From: Mycobacterium sp.
GTDB lineage: Bacteria > Actinomycetota > Actinomycetes > Mycobacteriales > Mycobacteriaceae
NCBI GenBank assembly: GCA_020438905.1
Contig: JAGQTQ010000117.1
Location: forward strand, 1-35,901
Direction of reading: 5' to 3'
Length of the DNA: 35,901 bases
Position numbers and translations under genes: made by a program. Within the stretch, counting starts at the first letter, position 1; each line of letters begins with the position of its first letter. Under the pieces are notes generated by a model. The model made no database searches. It saw only the letters and a program-made list of their open reading frames with translations, and had not been told where the DNA came from. Below are positions 2,157 through 11,983 of the stretch, piece by piece.

Positions 2157-3466
<1,310 letters not shown>

Positions 3467-3467
<1 letters not shown>

Positions 3468-4582
3468 TGCTAGGACCACTCGACGAATACCCCGTCCACC
3501 AACTCCCCCAGCCGATCGCCTGGCCCGGCCCCTCGGACCGGAACTTCTACGACCGCTCCTACTTCAACGCCCATGACCGCACCGGCGACATCTTCGTCAT
3601 CAGCGGCATCGGCTACTACCCCAATCTCGGGGTCAAGGACGCCTTTGTCCTCGTACGGCGCGGCGATATCCAGACCGCCGTGCACCTGTCCGACGCGATC
3701 GACCAGAACCGGCTGAACCAGCACGTCAACGGCTACCGCGTGGAGGTCGCCGAGCCGCTGCGCAAACTGCGCATCGTGCTGGAGGAGACCGAGGGTATCG
3801 CCTGCGATCTGACCTGGCACGGTCTCTTCGACGCGGTCCAGGAGCAGCGCCACGTGATGCGATCCGGCGCCAAGGTCACCCTGGATGCCCAGCGCTTCGC
3901 CCAACTGGGCCGCTGGAGCGGTCATCTGGTGATCGACGGCGAGCGGATCACCGTCGACCCGGCCAGCTGGATCGGCAGCCGTGACCGGTCCTGGGGCATC
4001 CGCCCCATCGGCGAAGCCGAACCACCAGGCCGCCCGGCCGATCCGCCGTTCGAGGGTATGTGGTGGCTCTACGTTCCGATCGCCTTCGACGACTTCGCCA
4101 TCGTCCTCATCATCCAGGAAGAGCCCACCGGGTTCCGCACCGTCAACGACTGCACCCGGATCTGGCGCGACGGCCGCATCGAGCAGCTGGGCTGGCCCCG
4201 GGTCAGCGTCCATTATCGTTCCGGCACAAGAATTCCCACCGGAGCGACGATCGAGGCCACCGACGCGCACGGCCGGCCGCTCCGGTTCGAAATCGATTCC
4301 AAACTGGCGGTTCCGATCCACGTCGGCGGCGGATACGGCGGTGACGCCGATTGGCTGCACGGGGTGTGGAAGGGCGAGAAGTTCACCGAGCGGCTTTCCT
4401 ACGACATGACCGACCCGGCGATCGTCGCGCGTTCCGGTTTCGGGGTGATCGACCATGTGGGCCGCGCGGTCTGCCACGAGGGAGACTCCGTCCCGCGAGA
4501 GGGCTGGGGACTGTTCGAGCACGGCGCCTTGGGCCGCCACGACCCGTCCGGCTTCGCCGACTGGCTCTCCGTCGCACCGTGA
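3467..4582 (+). CDS. Conserved Rv3169-like protein (DUF7064/7065, AttH/tocopherol-cyclase-like beta fold)
   Basis: The protein has 371 residues and starts with the ATG that overlaps the stop of the kinase-like gene. It has no signal peptide or membrane helix. Features typical of the CrtC/AttH/tocopherol-cyclase-like double lipocalin group are visible: SWIGSRDRSWGIRP in the middle, then FEGMWWLYVPIAF and WLHGVWKGEKF. These proteins are all-beta and are thought to bind or modify hydrophobic small molecules. Coupling to the kinase-like gene suggests they act on the same compound. The order kinase-like, this gene, aofH, hpx matches Rv3168-Rv3171c of M. tuberculosis. The family assignment is from motif memory; the biochemical role is unknown. 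Confidence 0.82.
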
Positions 4583-9502: not shown

Positions 9503-10612
9503 GTGGGTGTTCGCCTGCGCGCGCTGAGCGCTGTAGCGCTGCTGGTGACGATGATCGGAGCACTCCCGGGCCTGATGCCCTCAGCAGGTGCTGCCGACCC
9601 GGTCGTGGTCACCGTGGCCACCCACAACCTCGAACCGTTCGTGATGACCCGGGACGGCATCAAGTCCGGTTTCACCATCGAGTTGTTGGAGGCGGTCGCC
9701 GAGCGGGAGAACGTGACGCTGGAGTACGTCGACGTCGCCAACGTCGCCGAGCAGCTCCGAGCCGTCACCGACGGCCGGGTGGACGCCGCCGCAACCGCCA
9801 TCTCGATCACCGCCGAGCGCACCAAGGACTACGACTTCTCCCAACCCATTCTCAACTCCGGCCTGCAGATCATGGTGCCGACCACCCAGTTGCAGCGCTC
9901 CACACCCACCCTGAGCGAATTCCTGGGGCTGCTGTTCTCCAAGATGATGCTGGTCTGGCTGGTGGCAGGGCTGCTCATCTCGGTGATCCCCGCACACATC
10001 ATCTGGTTGTCCGAACGCAAACACGGCAACTCGATGGTGCCCAAGGCCTATCTGCCCGGGGTGTTCCGATCCTTCGGCTGGAGCCTGGGCATGCTCGCCG
10101 GACAGCCAGACGACGTACCCAAACACACGCTCACCCGGGTGCTGGCCGTCCTGTGGGCCTTCGTCGGCATCATCTTCGTGGCGTTCTACACCGCGACGCT
10201 GACCGCGAACCTGACAGTGGAGAAATTCGACGCCCAGATCAATTCACCGGCGGACCTGCTGGGCAAGCGGGTCTGCACGGTCGCCGAGACCGAACCGGCT
10301 CAGTACCTCAACTCGATCGGCGTGTCCGCCCAGGGCGCGGCCCAGATCGAGGACTGTTACGCCGCACTGCGGGGCGGCAAACTCGACGCGATCGTCTTCG
10401 ACGCGCCGGTGTTGCGGTTCTACGCCAACCACGAAGGATCCGGTGTCGGCCAGATCGTCGGCACCATCTTCGAGCCCGAGGACTACGGTGTGGCCTTCCC
10501 CAACGGCAGCGAGATGCGCAAACAGTTCAACCGGGGTCTGCTGTCCGTTCGGGAGGACGGCACCTATGAACTGATCAAGCAGAAGTGGTTCGGCAGCGAC
10601 GATTCCGGCTAA
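9503..10612 (+). CDS. Bacterial ionotropic glutamate receptor homologue (ligand-gated channel)
   Basis: This 369-residue protein has the full minimal iGluR order. A signal peptide ends near AGA (28-30). S1, the first half of a periplasmic-binding-type domain, spans ~31-140, with ISITAERTKDYDFS holding Arg106 at the position that binds the ligand carboxylate. M1 lies at ~148-169. A re-entrant pore loop (FRSFGWSLGMLAGQ, 188-201) follows. The next helix (~211-238) ends FYTATLTANLTVE, the counterpart of the SYTANLAAF gate. S2 spans ~244-369, with Asp300 (VFDAPVLRFY) at the amino-group site and Cys258/Cys285 that could pair. There is no amino-terminal domain or M4, as in cyanobacterial GluR0. The pore lacks the K+ signature TVGYG. 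A solute-binding transporter component is less likely because of the M1-P-M2 core. Start GTG 9503 has only a weak GAAAGG site. Confidence 0.87.
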   Translation: MGVRLRALSAVALLVTMIGALPGLMPSAGAADPVVVTVATHNLEPFVMTRDGIKSGFTIELLEAVAERENVTLEYVDVANVAEQLRAVTDGRVDAAATAISITAERTKDYDFSQPILNSGLQIMVPTTQLQRSTPTLSEFLGLLFSKMMLVWLVAGLLISVIPAHIIWLSERKHGNSMVPKAYLPGVFRSFGWSLGMLAGQPDDVPKHTLTRVLAVLWAFVGIIFVAFYTATLTANLTVEKFDAQINSPADLLGKRVCTVAETEPAQYLNSIGVSAQGAAQIEDCYAALRGGKLDAIVFDAPVLRFYANHEGSGVGQIVGTIFEPEDYGVAFPNGSEMRKQFNRGLLSVREDGTYELIKQKWFGSDDSG

Positions 10613-11232
10613 ACCGGGTCGAACCCGGACACCAGCCAGCGCTCGCCCACTTTGTCCAAGGTGACCCGCAGACTTGAGGCCGAGTTGCTGGGCGCGCTGC
10701 CCTCCATGGTGACGGTCTGGTCGACGAACACCAGCACCACGGCATGATCGGCGTCGGCGGACACCGAGGCCGCCGCAGGAACCCTGGCCTCGGTCGAGAT
10801 CCCCTTTGCCCGAGCACCGGGGACCACGATCCGGTCCACCAAATCGGTGTAAGAATCCAGGAAGGCCCCGGTGATCCGGTCTCGGGCGGCCGTCAGATCC
10901 GCCTCGACGGTGTCGGCTCGGTAGCTCAGGATCGCCACCGTCGCCTCGCGGGCGGCGGCGACCGATTCGGTGCGAGCGGTGTCGACCGCGTCCCTCGCGA
11001 CGTACTTCCAGAGCAACAGCCCCGCGCCGACGGTCAGGGCGAGAGTCGTCGCCGGGAGTACGCCGAAAGCGGCGATCCGCTGCCAGTCGGCAGCACCGCG
11101 AAACCCGGCCCCCTCCGACGCAGCGACCGTATCCTCGGCCTCGTCTGCTTCGACATCGGCTTCGATCTCGGTTTCGAAGTCGTCGTTCGGGTGAGCGTCG
11201 TGATCCTCGTTCCCGGTCTTCTCCTCGGTCAC
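10609..11232 (-). CDS. Mce-associated membrane protein (Mam), downstream copy
   Basis: The product has 207 residues. An acidic cytoplasmic N-terminus (FETEIEADVEADEAEDTV) precedes one membrane helix (~FGVLPATTLALTVGAGLLLWKY). The extracytoplasmic domain has the Mam pattern: a helical ARDRITGAFLDSYTDLVDRIVVPGARAKGI segment, then strands VSADADHAVVLVFVDQTV and a LRVTLDKVGERWLVSGFDPV ending. Mam proteins stabilise or assist Mce lipid importers; here no mce genes are nearby, so this is an orphan pair. I chose the GTG at 11232 because it overlaps the upstream stop as GTGA (11229-11232), implying coupling. Its own stop overlaps the receptor-like gene's stop (CTAA, 10609-10612). Confidence 0.85.
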   Translation of the reverse strand: MTEEKTGNEDHDAHPNDDFETEIEADVEADEAEDTVAASEGAGFRGAADWQRIAAFGVLPATTLALTVGAGLLLWKYVARDAVDTARTESVAAAREATVAILSYRADTVEADLTAARDRITGAFLDSYTDLVDRIVVPGARAKGISTEARVPAAASVSADADHAVVLVFVDQTVTMEGSAPSNSASSLRVTLDKVGERWLVSGFDPV

Positions 11233-11834
11233 GACACGAAATCCACCTTCGAGATCTTGGCCTCGCCGCCGACCCTGTTGACCGTCAGCTTCATTCGCCA
11301 GTAACGAGGCGGAGGCGGTTCGGCCACACCACGATTGGTGGTCTGAACCGTCACCGCCACCAACACCTGACCCTCGTCGGCGGTCATCGACTCCACGCCG
11401 GCCTCGGTGACCACGCCCGAGGACACCGACTGGGCCTTTCTCACGACATCGATGAAAGGATCGGCCCGGCCGGCGAACTCGTCGCGAAACGCGCCGGTCG
11501 CCGAGTCGAGGATGCGCTCCACGTCCGCCTCGACGGTCTGATAGTCGACGGTGGTCAGATTGACCGCCGCCTGCCTGCCCGCCTCGAGGAACAGCGCCCT
11601 GGCCTGCTCGGCCTGGCCCTGCCCGTGGACCCGGTAGCCCAGCCACCCGCACAGCGCGCTCAGGCCCAGCACCACCACCAGTCCGATGACCGCGACGCGG
11701 GCGACCGACTCCGGCATCGTGCGGCTCCACCGAGCCCCTGCCCATTGGGCCTTGTCCGGCTGAGACGTGTTCATGGGCTCGTCACCGTCGGAGCCGTTGT
11801 CGACGGACTCGTCGACAACCTCCTCATCGGCCAT
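11229..11834 (-). CDS. Mce-associated membrane protein (Mam), upstream copy
   Basis: This protein of about 201 residues has an acidic N-terminus, one membrane helix (VARVAVIGLVVVLGLSALCGWLGYRV) and a Mam-type outer domain (VEADVERILDSATGAFRDEFAGRADPFIDVVRKAQ, then VLVAVTVQTTNRG and YWRMKLTVNRVG). It is a paralogue of the next gene and coupled to it by a GTGA overlap. I chose the ATG at 11834 because TAGCCT ends 6 bases upstream, fitting a leaderless promoter. A GTG two codons earlier (11840) is the alternative; neither has a Shine-Dalgarno site. The pair probably forms a hetero-oligomer in the envelope supporting an Mce system encoded elsewhere. Confidence 0.84.
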   Translation of the reverse strand: MADEEVVDESVDNGSDGDEPMNTSQPDKAQWAGARWSRTMPESVARVAVIGLVVVLGLSALCGWLGYRVHGQGQAEQARALFLEAGRQAAVNLTTVDYQTVEADVERILDSATGAFRDEFAGRADPFIDVVRKAQSVSSGVVTEAGVESMTADEGQVLVAVTVQTTNRGVAEPPPPRYWRMKLTVNRVGGEAKISKVDFVS

Positions 11835-11983
11835 AACCACAGGCTACTCAGTAGGCCGTCAGTCCTGTACCGCCACGCCCGGGCGCGGTCCTCGTCGAAG
11901 CAAGCCGCATCGACCACCGTCCAGAACCGTCTCCGCACGCCTTAGCGAACGTGGTTCCACGGGGGGAGCCATTCCCGGGGAAT

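Follow-up and report, generated by a model that had tools for sequence, protein, structure and literature searches.

The locus considered here raises the question of whether a mycobacterial gene encodes an ion channel of the ionotropic glutamate receptor (iGluR) family and, if so, what kind of pore it carries. The window, that is, the whole stretch of DNA that was analysed, comprises 35,901 nucleotides of contig JAGQTQ010000117.1 from Mycobacterium sp., and tRNA and Rfam scans of it gave no matches. The original prediction, made from the letters alone, was that the gene encodes an ionotropic glutamate receptor with a non-potassium pore, possibly an amino-acid-gated cation channel; the sequence features that it named were confirmed, and its interpretation was partly supported. 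The reading frame runs intact from GTG to stop over 369 codons, and its parts are the following:

9503..10612, forward strand: iGluR-like gene with two helices and a P loop, 369 residues, GTG start.
9503..9595, forward strand: putative signal peptide, residues 1-31, a hydrophobic stretch with an SAGAA end (hydropathy only).
9611..9892, forward strand: S1, the first half of the clamshell, residues 37-130, from SBP_bac_3 and Lig_chan-Glu_bd matches and the 2PYY alignment.
9818..9820, forward strand: Arg106, expected to hold the ligand alpha-carboxylate.
9929..10012, forward strand: M1 helix, residues 143-170, from hydropathy.
10058..10120, forward strand: P helix and filter, residues 186-206, without TVGYG.
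10100..10102, forward strand: Gly200, aligned with the Q/R site of the animal receptors (printed alignments).
10112-10114, forward strand: Asp204, at the acidic +4 site (printed alignments).
10124..10222, forward strand: M2 helix (equivalent to animal M3), residues 208-240, from hydropathy and alignment with AMPA/kainate M3.
10184..10210, forward strand: gate motif FYTATLTAN, residues 228-236, the counterpart of SYTANLAAF in the alignments.
10238..10597, forward strand: S2, the second half of the clamshell, residues 246-365, from Pfam matches and the 2PYY and GluA2 alignments.
10274..10276, forward strand: Cys258, a possible disulfide partner within S2 of Cys285 (10355-10357).
10292..10294, forward strand: Glu264, at a side-chain subsite like that of Thr655.
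10400..10402, forward strand: Asp300, within VFDAPV, the presumed contact for the alpha-amino group of the ligand.

The strongest Pfam match, SBP_bac_3, is split over residues 37-364 (E 1.4e-26); Lig_chan lies at residues 151-267 (56.2 bits, cut-off 30.8, E 4.5e-15) and Lig_chan-Glu_bd at residues 36-127 (E 9.8e-8), each of them above its curated cut-off. All three families match every one of the 30 members of a mycobacterial profile, A2, at E ≤0.001. By hydropathy, the helices at 143-170 and 208-240 are separated by a less hydrophobic segment. The best solved relative in the PDB is 2PYY, entitled 'Ionotropic glutamate receptor bacterial homologue' (E 1.3e-46), which we take to be the ligand domain of NpGluR0 from Nostoc punctiforme, a member of Group 2 (see below). 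Profile A2 aligned collinearly over positions 13-364 to residues 394-790 of the GluA2 chain (E 3.3e-35), a stretch that spans S1, M1, P, M3 and S2; ranked above GluA2 were 2PYY and six solute-binding protein sequences, which matched via the ligand domain. The predicted order S1-M1-P-M2-S2 was thus borne out by the Pfam split, the hydropathy and the GluA2 collinearity, and the protein has the arrangement that defines the iGluR family, in which a P-loop pore domain divides the ligand domain into S1 and S2. No hydrophobic stretch was found after residue 241 and S2 ends four residues before the C terminus; the 369-residue protein has neither the M4 helix nor the amino-terminal domain of eukaryotic iGluRs, and it also lacks the C-terminal tail of AMPA/kainate receptors, so that it resembles a pared-down form of the amino-acid-gated channels of animal nerves.

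Some of these matches would also suit the plain solute-binding protein of an ABC importer for amino acids, in which hydrophobic segments have arisen by chance. SBP_bac_3 is, after all, the leading Pfam family, the ligand domain resembles that of GlnH-type proteins in sequence, and the NCBIfam matches are mostly to solute-binding proteins, though all of them fall far under their cut-offs. However, the two helices and the P loop form a channel-like insert inside the binding domain that is homologous to Lig_chan, and no cognate amino-acid permease was found among the ten window genes scanned or among 20 nearby genes scanned at eleven loci. The latter include a phage integrase, an ISL3 transposase and, near the receptor copy in genome G098, a FecCD permease, which may be counted in favour of an importer; FecCD permeases belong to iron/siderophore import. 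On the homology of the insert and the lack of such a permease among the genes scanned, the plain binding-protein reading was rejected, and it is scarcely credible.

In order to judge the pore apart from the ligand domain, the PDB was searched with the membrane segment only (about 124 residues). With the single window sequence, AMPA/kainate receptors accounted for all of the best 60 of 261 matches (best E 8.6e-7), and a profile of five sequences matched an AMPA/kainate receptor at E 4.4e-10. The same was found for a mycobacterial segment with a different filter, L014 (60/60 among the best 60 of 240 matches, E 1.7e-6), and for the cyanobacterial L065 (60/60 among the best 60 of 250, E 4.3e-8). 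The K+ control consisted of one sequence, L040, an actinobacterial iGluR with TVGYG, for which K+ channels were named in 59 of the best 60 of 451 matches (E 8.8e-11); the remaining listed match is titled only 'Lmo2059 protein', presumably also a K+ channel. By these searches, the pore taken by itself, apart from the ligand domain, is homologous to the pores of iGluRs, and with Pfam, 2PYY and GluA2 they uphold the assignment to the family. It had also been considered that the window protein might be the closest bacterial relative of the animal receptors; L065 scores slightly higher against AMPA pores (36.6 vs 32.3 bits), and this idea is not supported.

The pore sequence GWSLGMLAGQ occupies residues 192-201, and TVGYG is absent, as predicted, from the window protein and from all 59 mycobacterial rows of the alignment described below; GYG occurs in 2/59 rows, but within the P helix (FGYGLG, VGYGLG). 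In each alignment examined, the Q/R site, where AMPA/kainate receptors have Gln or Arg, is occupied by Gly200 (by Ala in the profile) and the +4 site by Asp204. Between filter and M2 the protein is one residue shorter than AMPA/kainate receptors, the gap being placed after 204, 205 or further on; the offset of about one residue and the position of Gly200, both of which had been proposed, are confirmed by the printed alignments. Further along, the gate-like helix end that had been predicted is present at FYTATLTANLTVE (residues 228-240, the end of M2), aligned with the AMPA/kainate gate. Pore, gate and ligand domain are therefore collinear with those of the animal receptors, for which an acid at +4 is likewise described in the relevant part of PMC12226733, and the P loop of the window protein would, by homology, be re-entrant.

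A K+-selective channel with an unusual filter could be imagined, given that the pore fold is common to both kinds of channel and that the seven full-length actinobacterial relatives examined from outside the mycobacteria all carry TVGYG or TIGYG. The filter of the window protein is, however, two residues shorter than the K+ type and devoid of TVGYG, and its membrane segment found no K+ channel among its best 60 of 261 matches. Comparison of the window protein with the L040 control in the membrane-only searches led to rejection of the K+ reading, which we regard as very unlikely.

That prokaryotes have iGluRs devoid of a K+ filter was already known. Ger et al. (2010) placed 10 of 22 proteins in 'Group 2', which is defined, in the part of that paper concerned (PMC2950845), without a recording from any Group 2 protein being given. 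The window protein has the topology of this group and a P region without recognisable K+ character; it shares with it the S1-M1-P-M2-S2 order, the conserved Arg and Asp and, in 2PYY, its best solved match, while the sequence that groups with it in the trees is the cyanobacterial L065 rather than any of the ten named Group 2 proteins. The mycobacterial clade differs from Group 2 in its gate, [YF][TS]A[NTI]L, and in having paralog arrays, some Lys/Arg filters and copies that lack the P loop. The K+-selective GluR0 of Synechocystis (Group 1) has the same domain order, two helices with a P loop and the Arg/Asp contacts, as given in the corresponding section of PMC2950845; the window protein differs in lacking TVGYG and in a pore that matches animal iGluRs, although the Group 1 sequence searched was the control L040 rather than GluR0 itself. 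GluR0 is described in a passage of PMC13099474 as a working channel with K+ activity and inverted topology, which affects cell volume after KCl shock. A word search found neither 'actinobacter' nor 'mycobacter' in the text of PMC2950845, and the lineage was not found described in the literature on mycobacterial, actinobacterial or general prokaryotic iGluRs, in which subscription journals were thinly covered. With Group 2 known since 2010, the mycobacterial proteins are to be seen as a new lineage and a variant of a known iGluR type; their filter types, paralog arrays and forms without a P loop were likewise not found described in the literature searched.

With respect to the ligand, S1 carries the motifs PFV (residues 45-47) and SITAER (residues 101-106). 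Arg106, which the original prediction had singled out, lies within ITAERTKDYDFS (residues 102-113) and is Arg in 59/59 mycobacterial rows; the position of Asp300 is Asp in 58/59. Both residues expected to contact an alpha-amino acid are thus conserved. Asp300 had been compared with the Asp of NMDA subunits; the residue is indeed present, but it is no special feature of this protein, as it is found throughout nearly all rows and the Asp at the S2 ligand contact is stated in the section of PMC2950845 concerned to be totally conserved in Groups 1 and 2. The odd residue of the binding site is instead Glu264. At this position Thr occurs in 54/59 mycobacterial rows and Glu in 3/59, namely the window protein, L035 and L131. 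The position presumably corresponds to Thr655 of GluA2, which we take to hold the glutamate side chain; since an acidic residue would occupy this subsite, glutamate is unlikely to be the best ligand of the window copy, and a neutral or basic amino acid may be guessed in its place. Cys258 and Cys285 are mostly gained or lost jointly (both in 28/59 rows, neither in 21/59, one in 10/59), and a disulfide between them, optional within the family, is possible.

The gene was found in at least 49/396 genomes of the genus at E ≤1e-25 (one of them, G043, with a fragment only) and in at least 37/361 genomes of good quality at the same threshold. In a smaller sample of the genus it was found in at least 23/148 genomes at 1e-20, in the family in at least 4/301 genomes and 1/31 genera, and in the order in at least 4/249 genomes and 1/68 genera. 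These tallies are all minimum values, since scoring was limited to part of the first-look candidates in each genome: up to 5 in the 396-genome set, 6 in the family, 8 in the order and 13 in the 148-genome sample. With only 49/396 genomes positive, the gene is evidently dispensable. Across the phylum, Lig_chan was matched in 24/396 genomes and exceeded the cut-off in 10; the phylum reading left out two frames of G429 above the Lig_chan cut-off as well as weaker matches. Group 1 iGluRs with TVGYG or TIGYG occur in several other actinobacterial families (L039, L040, L041, L043, L044, L045, L046).

For the trees, 77 unique frames gave an alignment of 70 rows, 59 of them mycobacterial, in which identical proteins were counted once and for which the fetched genomes represent part of the positive genus set. 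The rows dropped were a duplicate of the window protein, the long or fragmentary Group 1 sequences L041, L046 and L051, and fragments (two from L114, L026, one from L032), while L030 was kept though it has no N terminus. All 59 distinct mycobacterial sequences fall into a single clade (SH-aLRT 98). This clade adjoins the cyanobacterial L065 (support 95/93; SH-aLRT 90 in a second tree) on a long branch, and its placement there is tentative; L065 shares the shortened filter with the window protein and differs in lacking the Asp (IAPAPL). As far as searched, the lineage does not extend beyond a single genus, Mycobacterium taken broadly. The mycobacterial origin of the window gene is supported; a protein of 92% identity, flanked by the same neighbours, is encoded on a 397-kb contig from Mycolicibacterium sp. 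HK-STAS-ACTI-10 (L035). Two records with relatives, L036 and L037, are titled Bifidobacterium breve; contigs that agree with them in length and match coordinates occur as G126 and G111 of the window's genus, L037 also has the gene order of the window, and the labels look wrong. Carriage by phages or viruses was also considered and rejected, as three phage records match via S2 only and one scan of viral contigs found no relative of the window protein.

The filter varies considerably within the clade. In the 57 mycobacterial rows that retain the P loop, Gly (26 rows) and Ala (22 rows) predominate at position 200, and position 201, directly after the Q/R position, is basic in 21 (Lys 14, Arg 7). 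A further 31/57 rows combine an acidic residue somewhere in 202-205 with a position 201 that is not Lys/Arg, and 5/57 have neither the acid nor the basic residue. The gate residues A231 and L233 are invariant in 59/59 rows. A sub-clade of 22 rows (e.g. L013, L014, L017, L025) carries the filter GxGSLVG[KR], with Lys/Arg after the Q/R position in 19/22, which is odd for a cation channel. Three paralog rows, from L116 (G1205), L120 (G1249) and L114 (G1113), have Phe at the Q/R position; plant receptors are described in the passage of PMC12226733 concerned as having mostly Phe or Tyr there.

Selection on the gene was estimated from pairs of related copies. Between the window gene and its counterpart in L035, dN/dS was 0.108 for the whole gene, a sign of purifying selection, and 0.105 for the membrane part. 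When 14 intact pairs were pooled, the P helix and filter gave 0.079, the lowest of five regions, followed by M1 with its linker (0.112), M2 (0.123), S2 (0.145) and S1 (0.187); the difference of P and filter was significant with respect to S1 (p 2e-4) and S2 (p 3e-3, Fisher). Single pairs vary, with M2 at 0.47 in L064/L024 and P and filter at 0.27 in L006/L007, and in the window/L035 pair alone (P and filter 0.10, M2 0.14, S1 0.08, S2 0.08) the pore regions show no stronger constraint than the ligand domain. A decaying gene or an assembly artefact, to which the patchy distribution and the state of the assembly (84.9% complete, 189 contigs) might point, can be practically dismissed in view of the intact frame, the low dN/dS and the recurrence of the same gene and neighbours in another record, L035.

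Copies with an open frame that lack about residues 184-204, and with them the P loop, were found in G032 (L027/L112) and G1188 (L113), the latter flanked by the same neighbours as the window gene; the genus search found no second receptor copy in either assembly. Between the two, dN/dS was 0.79 for M1 and linker and 0.09 for S2, or 0.62 and 0.12 with slightly different bounds. M1 of this pair differs from that of the intact pairs at p 8e-5, a value from small, rounded counts and hand-chosen pairs. We interpret this to mean that M1, being relaxed once the P loop is lost, is held by pore function in the intact members, and that ligand binding is still useful without a pore, since S2 remains constrained.

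These copies lend themselves to another interpretation, in which the protein is a membrane-anchored amino-acid receptor that signals by a change of shape or by complex formation and conducts no ions. Selection on the ligand domain of copies without a P loop in two genomes, one of them at the syntenic locus, makes a non-channel role possible within the family; Lys/Arg at the filter in 21/57 rows is hard to reconcile with an easy passage of cations through those members, and no conserved partner gene was found that would show a use for current. The pooled intact pairs speak against it, as P loop and filter are their most constrained region, and so does the low constraint on M1 where the loop has been lost, as if M1 served the pore. 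A receptor of this kind is rather unlikely. It is a channel, namely a Group 2 iGluR of a mycobacterial lineage, that the window protein would probably be.

The surroundings of the gene were examined for partners and for traces of its history. In the window's lineage, a luciferase-like monooxygenase, an amine oxidase, an alpha/beta hydrolase, an LGFP protein and a small secreted protein precede the iGluR gene, and two putative Mce-associated genes and an MFS transporter follow it; calling the two genes (10609-11840) Mce-associated is our assumption, Pfam having given nothing firm for them. L035 shows the same order, and L037, L071 and L072 show it with gaps. Few neighbours are shared beyond near relatives among the 17 fetched stretches compared, and outside the window's lineage they differ from genome to genome in most genomes examined, as expected of a self-sufficient channel. 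The patchy distribution and the mobile-element neighbours suggest transfer of the gene. In a passage of PMC6172269, GO:0004970 'ionotropic glutamate receptor activity' is over-represented among horizontally acquired Mycobacterium genes, the enrichment being given there without a description of the genes. Receptor-like genes were also seen on a conjugative plasmid of Salmonella enterica (L070, CP074271.1, at 2923-3978, near an ISNCY transposase) and on alphaproteobacterial plasmids (L066-L068); these have solute-binding halves around two helices and other filters, and are annotated merely as substrate-binding proteins.

At the window's locus, four tandem receptor genes are present in G106 (L071, 6285-10723) and three in G003 (L072, 2550-5926), where a separate contig holds another two. 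In the trees, copies from different genomes group together in at least five sets, e.g. L008/L009/L121, L033/L119 and L032/L029/L119, with two further sets from G1205, G1249 and G1113; copies L009_2605, L008_2570, L028_1899, L117 and L122 are less clearly placed in the trees. Because these sets reach across genomes, the duplications behind them are older than the divergence of the genomes, and the multi-gene set at the G106/G003 locus seems, from the trees, to be old. A wider reading is that some mycobacteria possess a family of amino-acid-gated, non-K+-selective channels with pore and gate of the animal type, in which side-by-side subunits (up to four per array, several with orthologs in other species) form mixed receptors, with filters ranging from acidic to Lys/Arg and with P-loop-less proteins as partners or sensors; acidic filters would then pass Na+/Ca2+, Lys/Arg filters would conduct weakly or pass anions, and P-loop-less proteins would not conduct. 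This reading is tentative and less likely than not; if true, it would be a bacterial parallel to the subunit families of animals.

For the window protein itself, the explanation that we favour, with some confidence, is a prokaryotic iGluR without a K+ filter that would act as an amino-acid-gated channel not restricted to K+. By homology, four subunits would assemble with S1-S2 facing outward, and their P loops would dip into the membrane from the cytoplasmic side. Binding of an amino acid from outside in the cleft of S1 and S2 would close the clamshell, which would pull on the end of M2 and open the bundle at FYTATLTAN; ions not restricted to K+ could then pass a filter lined by the small residues A199 and G200 with an acidic ring of D203/D204. 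Opening may depolarise the cell or admit Na+/Ca2+, and we infer that this could serve a fast response to outside amino acids or to osmotic change.

In the passages concerned of reviews on the origin of iGluRs (PMC11479355, PMC6385376), bacteria are represented by GluR0, which is K+-selective. The lineage described here offers a bacterial clade in which pore and gate resemble, by sequence, those of animals and the K+ signature is missing, and the window protein, with about 340 residues after the signal peptide, is a compact object for testing the relation between K+ and non-selective pores. The clade also holds natural experiments in its acidic and basic filters, its paralog arrays and its loss of the P loop. 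If the window protein conducts, it would provide mycobacteria with a ligand-gated route of depolarisation of a kind not found described in the literature searched.
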